This document shows, piece after piece, positions 18,985-25,838 of a DNA stretch of 64,000 bases. The stretch is from positions 3,879,001 to 3,943,000 of the forward strand of contig NZ_CP124576.1 of NCBI RefSeq assembly GCF_000281715.2, written 5' to 3'. Each line of letters opens with the position of its first letter. Position 1 is the stretch's first letter. The notes under the pieces are model-generated. The model did no database searches, was not told the DNA's origin, and saw nothing but the letters and a program-made list of their open reading frames with translations. The stretch comes from Sphingobium sp. AP49. GTDB lineage: Bacteria > Pseudomonadota > Alphaproteobacteria > Sphingomonadales > Sphingomonadaceae. The translations under genes were made by a program, and so were the position numbers.

Positions 18985-19232
18985 TCTTAAGTCCTTCGTC
19001 ACGGCTGATCGCACCTTGGGTGCGAATCCAGCCAACAGCCATGCCGGAACGGACCGGATGGAATTGGGCGCGATCCTGCAGTGGATAACCGGTCCGGGCG
19101 GGGTCCAAGCGATCGTCGCTAGGGGCGCTTGCCGGACCCGTCAAGAGCAGAGCCCCGAAGCAGACGAGCATCCCGGCCTTTCTGTTCCCCGCCCTCTTAC
19201 ATTTTGATACAATTTGGCGGTATCGACAGGTT

Positions 19233-19253
19233 TGCAATTGCGAGTCGTTCGCG
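19233..19253. promoter_or_regulatory. Weak Fur-like box upstream of the PepSY/DUF2271/ApbE operon
   Basis: TGCAATT-N7-GTTCGCG resembles the alphaproteobacterial Fur pattern TGC(A/G)AAT-N7-ATT(T/C)GCA, with five of seven matches in each half. It lies 45 bp before the first start codon, close to the 50 bp seen for the much better box upstream of tonB. Suggestive only. Confidence 0.35.
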
Positions 19254-19297
19254 TTATTCGGGCCACCTCATTTCCCACAGGATTCGTCGCCGCTTCG

Positions 19298-19942
19298 ATG
19301 CACGCCCCCGCCCGCGCCCAGACCAAGAAAAAGAAGAGCGCCAAGGCTTTTTGGCTGAAGCAGTTGCACACCTGGCATTGGGTGAGTTCGGCGATCAGCC
19401 TGATCGGCCTTTTGCTCTTCGCCTTCACCGGCATCACCCTCAATCACGCCGCCGATGTCGAGGCTTCGCCCCAGACGGTCGAGAAGAATGCCGTCCTTCC
19501 CGCGCCGCTGCTGAAGCTTGTGGCCGCCGACGACGCGCCCGATGCCAAGAAGCCGCTGCCCGCCCCGATCGCCCAATGGGTTGAAAAGGAAATCGGCCAG
19601 AGCGGCGCAGGCGAAGCGGAATGGTCAGCAGATGAAGTCTATCTCGCCCTGCCTCGGCCGGGTGGCGATGGCTGGGTGTCGATCGACCGCCATGACGGCG
19701 CGGTGACGAGCGAATCGACCAGCCGTGGCTGGGTCAGCTATCTCAACGACCTGCACAAGGGCCGCAATGCCGGCGCAGTGTGGAAATGGTTCATCGACAT
19801 TTTCGCGATCGCCTGTTTCCTGTTTGCGCTGACTGGCCTGCTGCTGCTCCAGCTCCATGCCGCCAAGCGACCAAGCACCTGGCCGCTGGTCGCGATCGGC
19901 CTTGCCCTGCCTGCGCTCCTCGCCATCATCTTCATCCATTAA
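19298..19942 (+). CDS. PepSY-associated transmembrane protein
   Basis: A 214-residue inner-membrane protein. After a basic start (KKKKSAKAFWLKQLHTWHWV) comes helix 1 (about residues 25-45, SLIGLLLFAFTGITL). A periplasmic PepSY-like domain lies at about 48-145 (VEKEIGQSGAGEAEWSADEVYLAL, WVSIDRHDGAVTSES). Two C-terminal helices follow (FIDIFAIACFLFALTGLLLLQL and WPLVAIGLALPALLAIIFI). Histidines in the HTWHW, NHAAD and LHAAK segments could bind haem, as in PepSY ferric-reductase-like proteins; this is inference. It is first in an operon with DUF2271, DUF4198 and ApbE genes. Start set at ATG 19298; the longer frame from 19214 lacks support. Confidence 0.82.
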   Translation: MHAPARAQTKKKKSAKAFWLKQLHTWHWVSSAISLIGLLLFAFTGITLNHAADVEASPQTVEKNAVLPAPLLKLVAADDAPDAKKPLPAPIAQWVEKEIGQSGAGEAEWSADEVYLALPRPGGDGWVSIDRHDGAVTSESTSRGWVSYLNDLHKGRNAGAVWKWFIDIFAIACFLFALTGLLLLQLHAAKRPSTWPLVAIGLALPALLAIIFIH

Positions 19943-19958
19943 GGGGGACGATCACCTC

Positions 19959-20492
19959 ATGCAGACCAGCCATAAATTGCTCCTGTCCGGCAGCGTCGCG
20001 CTCGGCGCCACCGGTGCGCTCGCCGTCCCGGCCACCGCGCAGACGATGAACGTCACGGTCAATATCCCGCGCCTGTCGGTTGCCGAATATCATCGCCCCT
20101 ATGTCGCCATCTGGCTGGAGAAGGAAGGCGCTGCCCCCCGCACCCTGGCGGTCTGGTACGATGTCGACAAGGGTAAGGGCGAAGGCACCAAGTGGCTGCG
20201 CGACATCCGCCAATGGTGGCGCGTGTCGGGCCGCACGATGAGCTTCCCGGCCGATGGCGTATCGGGCGCGACCCGTGCACCGGGCGACCAGAAGATCGCC
20301 TTCACCGCTGGCAAGGGCCCGCTCGGCGCGCTCGGCCCGGGCAACTACACGCTGGTCGTGGAGGCCGCCCGTGAGGTCGGTGGCCGCGAGCTGGTCCGCC
20401 TGCCCTTCACCTGGCCGCCAAAGCCGGGCGCCACGGTCAAGGCACAGGGCAGCAGCGAACTCGGCGCCGTCAGCGTCAGCTTCGGCAAATAA
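19959..20492 (+). CDS. DUF2271 periplasmic protein with flavinylation-like motif
   Basis: A 177-residue secreted protein. The signal peptide covers about residues 1-28 (LLLSGSVALGATGALAVPATAQ). The DUF2271 body has VAEYHRPYVAIWLEKEG, TLAVWYDVDKGKGEGTKWLRDIRQWW and LGPGNYTLVVEAAREVGG. Residues 99-105 read DGVSGAT, matching the D-x-x-(S/T)-G-A-T signature at which ApbE attaches FMN to threonine in NqrC/RnfG-type proteins. An apbE gene lies two genes downstream. Thr105 (codon 20271-20273) is the predicted FMN site. It probably carries electrons between the membrane PepSY protein and a periplasmic acceptor. Confidence 0.8.
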   Translation: MQTSHKLLLSGSVALGATGALAVPATAQTMNVTVNIPRLSVAEYHRPYVAIWLEKEGAAPRTLAVWYDVDKGKGEGTKWLRDIRQWWRVSGRTMSFPADGVSGATRAPGDQKIAFTAGKGPLGALGPGNYTLVVEAAREVGGRELVRLPFTWPPKPGATVKAQGSSELGAVSVSFGK

Positions 20493-20507
20493 CAGGGGAT
20501 GAAGACC

Positions 20508-21389
20508 ATGAAAGCCAAATATCTGATCGCGGGCGCACTCGCAGCCCTGATGCTCTCCGGCGCGGCGCAAGCACACCGTCAGTGGATGCTGCCCTCCTCC
20601 ACCACCCTGTCGGGCACCGATAGCTGGGTGACGGTGGATGCGGCGGTCTCCAACGACCTCTTCTATTTCGAACATTTCCCGATGCGCACCGACGGCATCA
20701 CCGTGACCGAGCCCGATGGCACCACCGGCAAGATCGAAAATGCCGCCACCGGCAAATATCGCTCGACCTTCGATGTGCATCTGACCAAGCCGGGCACCTA
20801 TCGTATCGCCAATGTGTCGACGATGCTCATGGGCAGCTACACCCTCAACGGCAAGCAGGAACGCCTGCCGCGCGGCACCACCAAGGCCACTCTGGCGCAG
20901 GCGATCCCCGCCGGCGCCACCAATGTCCAGACCGCCGAAGCGAGCAACCGCAACGAGATTTTCGTGACGCTGGGCGCGCCAACCACGACCCTCTTCAAAC
21001 CGACCGGCGTCGGCATCGAGCTGGTTCCGGTCACCCATCCCAATGACCTGGTAGCCGGCGAAACCGCCACCTTCCAGTTCCTGCTCGACGGCAAGCCGGC
21101 GGCCGGTCTCAAGGTCACCGTCATCCCCGGTGGCATCCGCTATCGCGATGCGCTGGGCCAAATGGACCTCACCACCGACAAGGACGGCAAGCTGGCTGTC
21201 AAATGGGGCCAACCCGGTATGTACTGGCTGAACGCCAGCACCGGCGGTGGCCGCGAAGGTGGCCCTGGTGGCCCCGGCGCGCAGGGTGGCAAGCCCGGTG
21301 GCGCAGAGGGTGGACCGCCGGCCGCACCGGTCGGCCCGCCCCAAAACCGCGCTTCCTACATCACGACATTGGAAGTGCTGGCGCCCTGA
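20508..21389 (+). CDS. DUF4198 periplasmic protein
   Basis: A 293-residue secreted protein with a signal peptide (MKAKYLIAGALAALMLSGAAQAH, cleavage near AQA-H). The mature start HRQWMLPSSTTLSGTDSWVTVDAA and the middle part (FFEHFPM-like segment, LVPVTHPNDLVAGETATFQFLLDGKPAAGLKVTVIPGG) fit DUF4198, a beta-sandwich family often beside TonB-linked metal uptake genes. The tail is Gly/Pro-rich. Start at ATG 20508, nine bases after AGGGG; ATG 20499 is too close to that site. Function unknown; metal binding through the mature N-terminal histidine is a reasonable guess. The stop overlaps the proposed apbE start. Confidence 0.8.
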   Translation: MKAKYLIAGALAALMLSGAAQAHRQWMLPSSTTLSGTDSWVTVDAAVSNDLFYFEHFPMRTDGITVTEPDGTTGKIENAATGKYRSTFDVHLTKPGTYRIANVSTMLMGSYTLNGKQERLPRGTTKATLAQAIPAGATNVQTAEASNRNEIFVTLGAPTTTLFKPTGVGIELVPVTHPNDLVAGETATFQFLLDGKPAAGLKVTVIPGGIRYRDALGQMDLTTDKDGKLAVKWGQPGMYWLNASTGGGREGGPGGPGAQGGKPGGAEGGPPAAPVGPPQNRASYITTLEVLAP

Positions 21390-22366
21390 CGCAGCCTAGC
21401 CCGACACCTATCCGGATCGCGATAGCGCCCGGCCTGTCGCCCGCGCAATTTGCCGGGCGCCAGCGCCAGGGCGCCATCGTCGCCTATGGCGGCCCGACCA
21501 TGGGCAGCAGTTGGTCAGCCCATATCGTCGACCCGCCGGCAGACTGTCAGGCCCGGATCGAGGCCGTTCTCACCGCCGTCATCGGCGAGATGAGCAATTG
21601 GGAGGCAGGGTCCGACATCAGCCGCTTCAATCGCAGCCCGATCGGCCAGTGGGTCATGCTGCCGCCCGCAATGATGGGCGTGTTGCGTGCCGGCCTGGCC
21701 ATGGCGCGCCTGTCGGGCGGCGCTTTCGATCCGGCCATCGGCGGCCTGGTCGCCCGCTGGGGCTTTGGCCCGGTCCTGGCCGGCGGTACTGCAAGATCCT
21801 CGCTGGCACCCTGGACATGTATAGAACTGGACGGGGATTACGCCCGGCGCACCGCCGACGTCGCCCTCGACTTTTCCGGCATTGCCAAAGGCTATGCCGT
21901 CGATGCGGTCGCCGTCCGGTTGCGCGCGCTAGACCTGACCAACTTCCTGGTTGAAATTGGCGGCGAACTGCGCGGCGAAGGCGTGAAGCCCGATATCCAG
22001 CCCTGGTGGGTCGATATCGAAACGCCGGTCGACCTGTCGCTTCCCGTTTTGCGCGTCGCCCTTTGCGGCCTGTCGGTCGCGACATCGGGTGACTATCGCC
22101 GCTTTCGCCTGGAGGGAGGCCGGCGCCTGTCACACAGCATCGATCCCGCCTCCGCCACTCCGGTCGACAATGGCATCGCGTCGGTCACCGTGTTGCATGA
22201 AAGCGCGATGCTGGCCGATGCCTGGGCGACCGCGATCCTTGTCCTCGGGCATGAAAAGGGCATGGCCCTGGCCACCCGCCACGGCCTGGCCGCGCGACTG
22301 ATCCGGCGCGATGGCACGTGCGGGCTGGAATATATGACCCCTGCCCTCGCGGCGATGCTGGACTGA
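21386..22366 (+). CDS. apbE: FAD:protein FMN transferase (ApbE)
   Basis: Transfers FMN from FAD to a threonine of an exported target protein. Family motifs present in order: PTMGSSWSA, ISRFNRS, AFDPAIGGLVARWGFG, LDFSGIAKGYAVDAV, VEIGGELRGEG, ATSGDYRRF, HSIDPASATPV and the Mg-site region ADAWATAILVLG. No ATG, GTG or TTG lies between the DUF4198 stop and the PTMGSSW motif in this frame, and no signal peptide is visible. The best start is CTG at 21386 in a CTGA overlap with the DUF4198 stop. A frame open back to 21203 would need a long overlap with arginine-rich nonsense. The likely target is the DUF2271 protein of the same operon. Confidence 0.87.
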   Translation: MTQPSPTPIRIAIAPGLSPAQFAGRQRQGAIVAYGGPTMGSSWSAHIVDPPADCQARIEAVLTAVIGEMSNWEAGSDISRFNRSPIGQWVMLPPAMMGVLRAGLAMARLSGGAFDPAIGGLVARWGFGPVLAGGTARSSLAPWTCIELDGDYARRTADVALDFSGIAKGYAVDAVAVRLRALDLTNFLVEIGGELRGEGVKPDIQPWWVDIETPVDLSLPVLRVALCGLSVATSGDYRRFRLEGGRRLSHSIDPASATPVDNGIASVTVLHESAMLADAWATAILVLGHEKGMALATRHGLAARLIRRDGTCGLEYMTPALAAMLD

Positions 22367-23821: not shown

Positions 23822-24505
23822 TCAGGCCTCCGCCCAACGCCGCAGCAAATTGTGATAGACGCCGGTCAGCCGGATCACCTCCGCATGATCCTGTCCCAGT
23901 TCGAGCGCCGTCCCCTGCACACTACGGTCGAGATCGAACAGCAGTTGGCGCGCGCCATCATCGCGGATCATCGACTGAAGCCAGAAGAAGCTCGCCACGC
24001 GGCGCCCACGCGTCACCGGCTCGACCCGATGGAGCGAGGAAGATGGATAGAGCACGGCCTGCCCGGCTGGCAATTTAACCTGCTGCACGCCAAAATTGGT
24101 CTCTATCGTCAACTCCCCGCCATCATAGGCATCGGGCTCTTCCAGAAAGACCGTGATCGACAGATCGGAACGCACACGAAAGCCGGTGCCAGCCTGGATA
24201 CGTACTGCATTGTCGACATGCACGCCGAAGGCCTGACCTCCAGCATAGCTGTTGAACAGCGGCGGGAATATCTTGAGCGGCAGCGCCGCAGCAATGAACA
24301 GAGGCGAACGGCCCAGGGCATCGAGGATGATTTGCCCCGCCTGCCTGGCCGCAGGCGCATCCTCGGGCAGTTGCAGGTTCCGCTTGGCCAATGCCGACTG
24401 ATAGCCTGAGGTGATGTTACCATCGACCCATTCCGCCTGGTCGATGAGGCTACGCACGGCACCGATCGCTGCCGAATCAAGCAGGTCGGGAATGACGGTC
24501 AGCAT
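23822..24505 (-). CDS. piuC: PKHD-type Fe(II)/2-oxoglutarate dioxygenase, PiuC/YbiX family
   Basis: A 227-residue oxygenase. Iron ligands His96 and Asp98 (FGVHVDNAV) and distal His159 ([10 protein letters not shown]), with Arg169 for 2-oxoglutarate ([11 protein letters not shown]), are all in place. The N-terminal MLTVIPDLL and the [10 protein letters not shown] strand are typical. Members are usually iron-regulated and sit beside TonB-dependent siderophore receptors; here the upstream neighbour, 87 bp away on the same strand, is a TonB gene with a Fur-like box, so the two may be co-transcribed. The substrate is unknown. Confidence 0.88.
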
Positions 24506-24592: not shown

Positions 24593-25369
24593 TCAGGCGC
24601 TTTCGGAGCGCAACACAAACGGAATTTCAACCACGCCCTTCACGCGCACGGCCTGTCCATCGCGAACGATCGGTCGCCACCGCCAATGCTTGACCGCATC
24701 GCGCGCCGCATCGTCGAGACGGGTAAAGCCGCTGCTCCGGCTGATGCCGATGCTTTCGACCGCACCGTCGATGCCGACAACAAGCGCGAGCACGACCGTT
24801 CCCTGTTCCCGCTCGCGACGGCTGTCGATCGGATAGCGCGGCGGCTTCCCCGCGACCATCTGGGCACCGATGTCACCGGCCTGGAGAACAGAGGGCGCTG
24901 CGACCGACACCGTTGGCGCTGCCGGTGCGGATGGCGCCGGAACCGAGGATGTGACGGCCGGTGATGGCGCAGGTGCCGGATCGGGCGTCGTCATGATCTG
25001 GACCGGTGGCGCCGGTGTCTGCACAATCGGCGGCGGCGCCACAATCTGTGGCTGGGACGGCGGCGGAGGCGGTGCTTCGGCGGCAGGCGGCGGGGGCGGC
25101 GGCGACAGGTTGACGACCGTCAACTTCGCTTCCTCGGCCCGCGCGACATGATTGCGGACCTGGATCAACGCCCCGATCAACAAGGCATGGACGGCAAGGA
25201 TGCCCAGAACCACCGGCATATTCGGACGCTTGCGCATGCCGTAGCGTTCCGTCGGGGATTCCATGGGCCGCGCATGAAAAACGGGCTGTGCCGCAGCCGG
25301 ACGATCCGCGCCGATCTCGACGGGCTCGGTGGCGAAGGCATCCGCCCTGCCCTGTGCCGCTTGCAGCAT
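24593..25369 (-). CDS. tonB: Energy transducer TonB
   Basis: A 258-residue inner-membrane protein. After about 50 cytoplasmic residues, one helix (MPVVLGILAVHALLIGALIQV) is followed by a long Pro-rich periplasmic spacer (residues about 80-160) and the C-terminal TonB domain (PRYPIDSRREREQGTVVLALVVGIDG, then SSGFTRLDDAARDAVKHWRWRP). It passes proton-motive energy to outer-membrane receptors. The start at 25369 has GGAGG at seven bases; the frame open to 25648 is not needed. A good Fur-like box lies 50 bp upstream. No exbB/exbD here. Confidence 0.92.
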   Translation of the reverse strand: MLQAAQGRADAFATEPVEIGADRPAAAQPVFHARPMESPTERYGMRKRPNMPVVLGILAVHALLIGALIQVRNHVARAEEAKLTVVNLSPPPPPPAAEAPPPPPSQPQIVAPPPIVQTPAPPVQIMTTPDPAPAPSPAVTSSVPAPSAPAAPTVSVAAPSVLQAGDIGAQMVAGKPPRYPIDSRREREQGTVVLALVVGIDGAVESIGISRSSGFTRLDDAARDAVKHWRWRPIVRDGQAVRVKGVVEIPFVLRSESA

Positions 25370-25418
25370 TCCCGACCTCCGTCCCTTTACGCGCCAATCG
25401 CGATACCGTGATCCATAA

Positions 25419-25439
25419 TGCGAATCAATTTCATTCGCA
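25419..25439 (-). promoter_or_regulatory. Fur-like box upstream of tonB
   Basis: A perfect 7-7-7 inverted repeat: TGCGAAT, a 7-base spacer (CAATTTC), and ATTCGCA. It agrees closely with the alphaproteobacterial Fur consensus. It lies 50 bp before the tonB start codon, where it would cover the promoter, so iron repression of tonB (and probably piuC) is likely. Confidence 0.72.
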
Positions 25440-25547
25440 GCCCGTAGCGCATTTTGCAGGATCGTAGAAGTAAGGAAGAAACCCAATAGCAATGATGGAT
25501 TGCCGGTAACGTCGCACCGTCCGACACCGCCATGGCTGATGTCCGCA

Positions 25548-25838
25548 TCAAGGCGACAGCGTTTCGTTTCCCGCCAATCGGGCAAAAAGCCAGGACCGTA
25601 TGGCACTGGCCAGGTTAGGCGGATCATCGACCGCCATCCGAGCCACATCGATGCGCGCGATCAGCGCATTGACGGGCAAGTCAGCCTGCACGGCCGCGGC
25701 ACGCAGCGCCTGCCAGAAAATGGGTTCCAGACTGATGGCGGTCTGGTGCCCGGCGATCGTGACGCTGCGCTTGACCGGAGGAGCGAAGGGCGACGCCCCG
25801 GGCGCGGACGCGCCATCGGAAGCGACGCCCCGTCGCAT
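25548..25838 (-). CDS. Ribbon-helix-helix domain protein
   Basis: A 96-residue protein. Its core VKRSVTIAGHQTAISLEPIFWQALRAAAVQADLPVNALIARID ... NLASAIRSWLFARL matches the RHH_4 family (beta strand, two helices), common as a single small gene in alphaproteobacteria. DNA binding is expected but no target is known. The start overlaps the stop of the acetoacetyl-CoA reductase gene by one base (TGATG), so it is translationally coupled to it. It is the last gene of the overlapping minus-strand cluster. Confidence 0.78.
   Translation of the reverse strand: MRRGVASDGASAPGASPFAPPVKRSVTIAGHQTAISLEPIFWQALRAAAVQADLPVNALIARIDVARMAVDDPPNLASAIRSWLFARLAGNETLSP

Follow-up and report, generated by a model that had tools for sequence, protein, structure and literature searches.

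The stretch of DNA considered here (the window) covers 64,000 nucleotides (nt) of Sphingobium sp. AP49 (contig NZ_CP124576.1, positions 3,879,001 to 3,943,000) and harbors, at window positions 19298-22366, one tight operon encoding a PepSY_TM_like_2 membrane protein, a DUF2271 protein, a DUF4198 protein, and ApbE (Table 1). An earlier note, made from the sequence alone, had proposed this gene content, and Pfam matches to all four families bear it out. It had also given intergenic distances of 16, 15, and -4 nt; the first stands, the second holds only with the second ATG of the DUF4198 gene (20508; the start at 20499 leaves 6 nt), and the last, an overlap over CTGA at 21386-21389, depends on a CTG start of apbE, since the own-genome copy of the locus (L124) offers no ATG, GTG, or TTG from the DUF4198 stop to the ApbE core. 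CTG lies at this overlap in 43 of the 49 in-register loci examined (9 out-of-register loci not counted). Of these 43, 24 are devoid of any ATG, GTG, or TTG ahead of the ApbE core; the CTG start is possibly conserved among the relatives. The operon probably represents an iron-starvation unit for periplasmic metal reduction, with Fe(III) as the most likely substrate. Its likely novelty is the location of ApbE, which would be a feature of the clade of this enzyme rather than of this window alone.

Table 1. Features of the operon, its promoter region, and neighboring genes in window coordinates (E, expectation value; aa, amino acids)
Feature	Position	Strand	Remarks
Promoter-like block	19232..19260	+	TTGCAA (-35-like), 17-nt Fur-like operator TTGCGAGTCGTTCGCGT, TATTCG (-10-like); putative role
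PepSY_TM_like_2 membrane protein, 214 aa	19298..19942	+	Pfam PF16357 E 5e-79; PF03929 E 5e-13
DUF2271, 177 aa, predicted carrier of flavin mononucleotide (FMN)	19959..20492	+	Pfam PF10029 E 2e-47; Sec-type signal by heuristic
DGVSGAT, DUF2271 residues 99-105	20253..20273	+	Thr105 codon 20271-20273, predicted FMN site
DUF4198, Gly-rich tail	20508..21389 (alternative start 20499)	+	Pfam PF10670 E 1e-59
DUF4198 predicted mature N-terminus, His	codon 20574-20576	+	A-x-A then His26; cleavage predicted by eye
ApbE, probable CTG start	21386..22366	+	Pfam PF02424 E 1e-69; export signal not recognised
PiuC/YbiX-type Fe(II) dioxygenase	23825..24505	-	Neighbor, outside operon
TonB protein	24596..25648	-	Neighbor, outside operon

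Gene clusters of this composition have been described: 3220 PepSY-like flavinylation clusters were reported, 2833 with DUF2271 and 1500 with DUF4198 (Meheust 2021, PMC8238504; this and the other papers cited are drawn on through excerpts of their text). The PepSY-like protein, DUF2271 with an [ST]GA[ST] motif, ApbE, and DUF4198 are all found here, together with a substrate exported by heuristic, and these four components do not differ from those of the published clusters; the assignment of the locus to this kind is well supported by sequence likeness. Among named organisms, S. scionense has the DUF2271 protein most similar to this one (92% identity; the listing may omit the window's own genome). 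Caulobacter crescentus harbors all four genes in identical order (CC_3059-3063, CCNA_03155-03159), plus a fifth for a sulfite-reductase-type flavoprotein, which is absent here. The sphingomonad operon is a reduced form that lacks the reductase gene.

The DGVSGAT motif that had been read in DUF2271 is confirmed by translation. D-x-x-[ST]-G-A-[ST] occurs once in the 135 window frames of at least 150 aa (46,017 residues) and 18 times (0.010 per 1000 residues) in a background of 5,449 frames of at least 150 aa, taken from the loci of 155 relatives plus the window minus matches to the DUF2271 profile; 9 of these 18 are divergent DUF2271 proteins. Of 141 DUF2271 relatives (window left out, L124 included), 140 end the motif with Thr and a single one with Ser, and 83 keep [ST]GA[ST] as a whole. 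A motif arising by chance is ruled out by this rarity and conservation. The earlier note would have abandoned a flavinylated DUF2271 if homologues beside apbE lacked SGAT. Such homologues do exist, [ST]GA[ST] variants like TGPT or SSAT occurring at 46 of the 118 loci whose fetched stretch contains ApbE, yet the acceptor residue is kept in all 46, and that test is therefore judged too strict. A divergent DUF2271 group outside the profile (14 loci: L065-L076, L078, L092) shows GAS at the acceptor site in 14/14, as judged by eye; ApbE is present in 12 of the 14 loci, with none scoring for a signal.

Enzyme and putative substrate are also tightly linked across genomes. In a sample of 249 genomes of the family, ApbE was found in all 73 with DUF2271 over the cut-off vs 13 of the 176 others (Fisher p 6e-50, uncorrected for kinship; the 176 include G623, 67% complete, with a sub-cut-off DUF2271 match only and no ApbE match), and it is located within 3.5 kb of DUF2271 at 71 of 74 loci. 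The order and phylum samples, own genome left out, yielded ApbE in 70/70 genomes with DUF2271 over the cut-off, five phylum genomes with sub-cut-off DUF2271 matches only being left out. In the single-contig 4.5-Mb own genome, one ApbE and one DUF2271 were found, both in the operon. That ApbE serves another client there was considered and dropped, as neither an FMN_bind protein nor a second DUF2271 was found in that contig (NqrB/RnfD and DUF3570 lay outside this search). Moreover, the DUF2271 protein of Amantichitinum ursilacus is flavinylated by its own ApbE, and a Thr-to-Ala exchange abolishes the modification (Meheust 2021, PMC8238504). The published member, the strong co-occurrence, and the nearly invariant acceptor Thr together support DUF2271 as a client of ApbE, and Thr105 very probably carries covalent FMN placed by this enzyme.

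The PepSY protein shows hydrophobic spans at residues 29-47, 166-184, and 195-213. Of the 134 PepSY sequences compared, a total that includes the window and L124, all have H27 and H153, 129 have H50, 116 have H187, and 125 have the C-terminal H214. H27 and H187 would map to the inner and H50 and H153 to the outer membrane face, if the Lys-rich N-terminus is cytosolic, and these four histidines are compatible with two hemes. In FoxB, two hemes are bound, each face of the membrane contributing a pair of His (PMC13038864). The PepSY_TM proteins FoxB, HiuB, and CrpH, for which metal reduction has been shown or proposed, have conserved His pairs at both faces, to which those predicted for the protein described here would correspond; this protein differs in its three hydrophobic spans and in a profile without significant match among solved chains; identity with FoxB by sequence was discarded for the latter reason. 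A frame for a diflavin reductase was detected at 62 of 82 non-sphingomonad vs 1 of 59 sphingomonad loci and is absent at this locus (profile built from 8 of the 82 loci, groups assigned by hand, divergent loci uncounted). Outside the divergent group, a Pfam scan of 13 frames downstream of apbE gave seven with flavodoxin plus NAD-binding domains, one with flavodoxin only, one unrelated acyltransferase, and four without match; at the two divergent loci scanned (L065, L075), the next gene encodes PepSY_TM, flavodoxin, and NAD-binding domains fused in one protein. Diflavin reductases beside or fused to PepSY thus speak for NAD(P)H as the source of electrons in the relatives. Together with the His pairs they also back the claim of the earlier note that PepSY carries electrons, and it quite probably acts as an electron wire. 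The sphingomonad relay, devoid of a reductase gene, poses the question of the electron donor clearly. Elsewhere in the own genome, flavodoxin domains match in three proteins, two of the FMN_red type and one PepSY_TM fusion, a separate 859-aa frame (L242:289-2865) that combines PepSY_TM, flavodoxin, and NAD-binding domains.

For DUF4198, the comparison covered 135 sequences, among them the window and L124. The first residue of the predicted mature protein is His in 130 and the preceding residue Ala in 134, and mature His155 and His34 are kept in 133 and 116 sequences, respectively. Given this conserved N-terminal His and Ni(II) binding by a distant DUF4198 protein, a metal site is likely, probably with second ligands unlike those of that protein. 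Among solved structures, the 9mhi series and 9mhk also matched the DUF4198 profile (E about 1e-8), under an unrelated molecule name.

In the promoter-like block upstream of the PepSY gene, TTGCAA is separated from a TA-rich start by 17 nt that contain the Fur-like TGCGARTCRTTCGCG. Its first 26 nt (19232-19257) recur upstream of PepSY: 56 of 60 regions exceed the best score of 1200 single-base shuffles, 16/26. The 60 regions include the window, L124, and one Lysobacter (L169), and the consensus was derived from the same regions, hence the score expresses conservation and is not an independent match. By likeness, the block may be regarded as a Fur box. In the whole genome, 17 sites match the 17-nt pattern with at most two mismatches, vs 8 for the reversed pattern. 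Seven of the 17 adjoin this operon (L225), TonB (L240), four TonB receptors (plug or barrel domains beside L226, L228, L230, and L233), or one PepSY_TM gene (L227); the copies at TonB and the TonB receptors are weaker than that of the operon. Within the window, the operator match that ranks second lies in the TonB promoter (25415-25440, minus strand).

Published data on related clusters point in the same direction. CC_3059-3063 of C. crescentus is Fur-regulated, with Fur sites over -35 and -10 (PMC3751524), and transposon insertions in it lower fitness in EDTA (PMC12004947). Fur repression has been reported for Caulobacter and Shewanella cluster members, and iron reduction was proposed from Fur data and transporter neighbors (Meheust 2021, PMC8238504). 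Iron limitation enriches those DUF2271 and DUF4198 genes of Alteromonas macleodii that neighbor iron-responsive receptors (PMC7190382). The earlier note had named Fe(III), next to Cu(II), as a possible metal; the Fur-like operator, the adjoining PiuC and TonB genes, and the Fur regulation of the Caulobacter counterpart strengthen the case for iron, and a role of the operon in iron uptake appears quite likely.

It is supposed that the unit would work as follows. Upon iron shortage, a Fur-type repressor would leave the promoter. ApbE would transfer FMN from flavin adenine dinucleotide (FAD) to Thr105 of DUF2271, a reaction shown for another DUF2271 protein, possibly in the cytosol. Two bis-His hemes in PepSY, one close to either face of the membrane, may conduct electrons outward, supplied from NAD(P)H via a diflavin reductase in most non-sphingomonad relatives and perhaps from quinol here. 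The periplasmic acceptor of the electrons from FMN-bound DUF2271 would be ferric iron or a chelate of it, and DUF4198 might bind the metal ion by its N-terminal His, like its remote relative, as a holder or chaperone.

Several observations weigh against this scheme. No demonstration of metal reduction by this or any DUF2271 unit was found in the literature, as far as excerpts reach; the statement of the earlier note that the function of the unit had not been shown holds to this extent, albeit flavinylation of one DUF2271 protein is published. The operon has no gene for an electron donor; in the genome as a whole, a single diflavin-type frame was found, as part of a fusion with another PepSY_TM protein. 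As the reversed control gave 8 vs 17 sites, about half of the operator sites may be fortuitous; a Pfam scan of 20 flanking frames at 14 of the 17 sites (L235 left out) revealed no iron gene at nine. Beyond the family, ApbE and DUF2271 are less tightly linked: the order sample (118 genomes) contains ApbE in 15/15 genomes with DUF2271 but also in 46 of 103 without, and the operonic ApbE appears on the wrong side of the membrane relative to exported DUF2271. The best-studied DUF4198 protein (IsDUF4198, PDB 9GCB) binds Ni(II) via His1 and His18 (PMC12537917). It belongs to the same family, and its mature form starts with His, as is predicted here too, but position 18 is Trp in the window and in 118 of the 135 sequences, so that the His18 ligand is missing and His34 and His155 are the conserved candidates. 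Finally, the N-terminal His is lost in five Sphingobium-type relatives (L152, L153, L157, L164, L175), which provide natural variants of the putative metal site.

Ni(II) binding by IsDUF4198 (PMC12537917) and the Bordetella pertussis PepSY_TM protein CrpH, a proposed copper reductase (PMC13038864), would fit a relay that reduces or handles copper or nickel instead of iron. This is unlikely in view of the operator-like sites common to TonB, TonB receptors, and a PepSY_TM gene, the nearby PiuC and ferrochelatase genes, and the Fur-regulated Caulobacter counterpart (PMC3751524). Still less probable is an FMN carrier that feeds another periplasmic oxidoreductase, in protein repair or respiration: ApbE-modified carriers in general serve diverse acceptors (Meheust 2021, PMC8238504), but no such enzyme is encoded in the operon, and the context is that of iron.

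Concerning the place of flavinylation, the ApbE domain clearly resembles solved FMN transferases (5mgy, E 5e-59; 6nxi, E 2e-44), and its segments TSGDYR, LSHSIDP, and ADAWATA align with TSGDYR, YSHIIDP, and ADGLATG of 6nxi (catalytic numbering unverified). An N-terminal signal with lipobox, as in the periplasmic lipoprotein ApbE of the NqrC/RnfG type, was not recognised in this ApbE. Export signals were assessed with a home-made score, not SignalP, of the best hydrophobic uncharged core (N, Q, and one Pro permitted) ahead of the ApbE core or the DUF2271 domain. At the cut-off of 20, 129/134 DUF2271 proteins, 19/20 stand-alone ApbEs, and 4/123 operonic or locus-linked ApbEs score, many of these loci being close relatives and hence not independent. 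The cut-offs 18, 20, and 22 gave 5, 4, and 4 of 123 for operonic ApbE and 131, 129, and 126 of 134 for DUF2271. At the 111 loci with both genes, only the substrate scores at 104, both at 4, and neither at 3. The four scoring operonic ApbEs are L103, which looks spurious, L111, L169, and L174. An earlier, looser test (Kyte-Doolittle maximum of at least 1.84 or any lipobox-like tetrapeptide) flagged 16/113 operonic ApbEs, several via a Cys beside the core, and its hydrophobicity part, with the cut-off unchanged, caught only 91/135 DUF2271 proteins. In the own-genome copy, DUF2271 scores 31.1, with the hydrophobic core followed by A-x-A. Export via twin-arginine translocation as a general route for DUF2271 was dismissed, since RR, KR, or RK precedes the core in just 21/134.

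The stand-alone ApbEs belong to genomes with a DUF2271 locus devoid of apbE (18 of the main, 2 of the divergent DUF2271 type), and seven fused ApbE-DUF2271 proteins show hydrophobic N-termini. In an unrooted ApbE tree of 77 rows, with 57 loci picked by hand, 43 operonic and 9 divergent sequences lie on one side of a branch (95/98), and 20 stand-alone and 5 fused ones lie apart. The earlier note took the shared operon to mean that enzyme and substrate occur together. Their co-encoding is correct, but it does not settle where they meet, because this ApbE lacks a recognised export signal; for the same reason, FMN attachment may precede Sec export and take place in the cytosol. This order of events is tentatively preferred, at just short of an even chance. 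Bulky adducts can reportedly pass through Sec, a finding ascribed to Bonardi in 2011. That a dedicated ApbE clade of the DUF2271 operons flavinylates the Sec preprotein in the cytosol, before or during export, is advanced a little more cautiously.

Alternatively, ApbE might yet reach the periplasm, by a signal that escaped recognition or together with a partner, and flavinylate DUF2271 there, like the enzyme of NqrC systems. This is a serious possibility, albeit clearly under an even chance. The stand-alone ApbEs speak for it, the single one below the cut-off missing it narrowly (19.9 vs 20), as does the clear signal kept in operonic L111, L169, and L174. Likewise, in the sole experimentally tested DUF2271/ApbE pair, that of Amantichitinum, the cognate ApbE naturally bears a signal peptide, which was removed for the experiment (Meheust 2021, PMC8238504); this counts against cytosolic attachment. 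On the other side stand the contrast of 4/123 operonic ApbEs to 129/134 DUF2271 proteins and N-termini like MTVRIAIPPALSPAAF (L165) and MTALLDIASLGGHTMGTTW (L190), which leave scant room for a signal. Cytosolic ApbEs acting on cytosolic targets are known, and the route of FAD to periplasmic ApbE has been called obscure (2025 review, PMC12052999). The Klebsiella ApbE for fumarate reductase also has no signal peptide, its target being cytosolic vs predicted exported here (PMC12052999). A signal-less ApbE paired with an exported target is not described among the literature matches listed, and the excerpted text of Meheust 2021 (PMC8238504) does not comment on the missing ApbE export signal in PepSY clusters. 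If cytosolic attachment is correct, ApbE would sidestep the question of periplasmic FAD supply by acting before export and provide a second maturation route for extracytosolic flavoproteins, coexisting with the classical periplasmic lipoprotein ApbE that serves like substrates in other genomes.

Upstream of the operon, an MlaA gene is located on the opposite strand; downstream, also on the opposite strand, genes for a beta-eliminating lyase, the PiuC-type dioxygenase, TonB, an SDR-family protein, and ferrochelatase follow. A PiuC-type gene is present in 72 of 156 stretches (window and L124 included), and in 39 of these 72, piuC is preceded on its own strand by a frame of 600 aa or more. Five such frames were scanned by Pfam, revealing four TonB-dependent receptors and one (L176) without match. 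No TonB receptor adjoins piuC in the window. In Caulobacter, the receptor/dioxygenase pair CciT/CciO constitutes an iron system (PMC12004947).

Ahead of the promoter-like block, ACATTTTGATACA at 19199-19211 contains a TTTTGATACA part. At L124-L138, L152, L153, and L164, which are chiefly Sphingobium, one of six TTTTGATACA spellings starts 28-31 nt upstream of TTGCAA; none does so at this distance at the remaining loci, L139 included. A copy of the operon also resides on a contig titled Bacillus subtilis (L203); its ApbE and DUF2271 N-termini are Stenotrophomonas-like, and the contig is probably mislabelled or contaminated.

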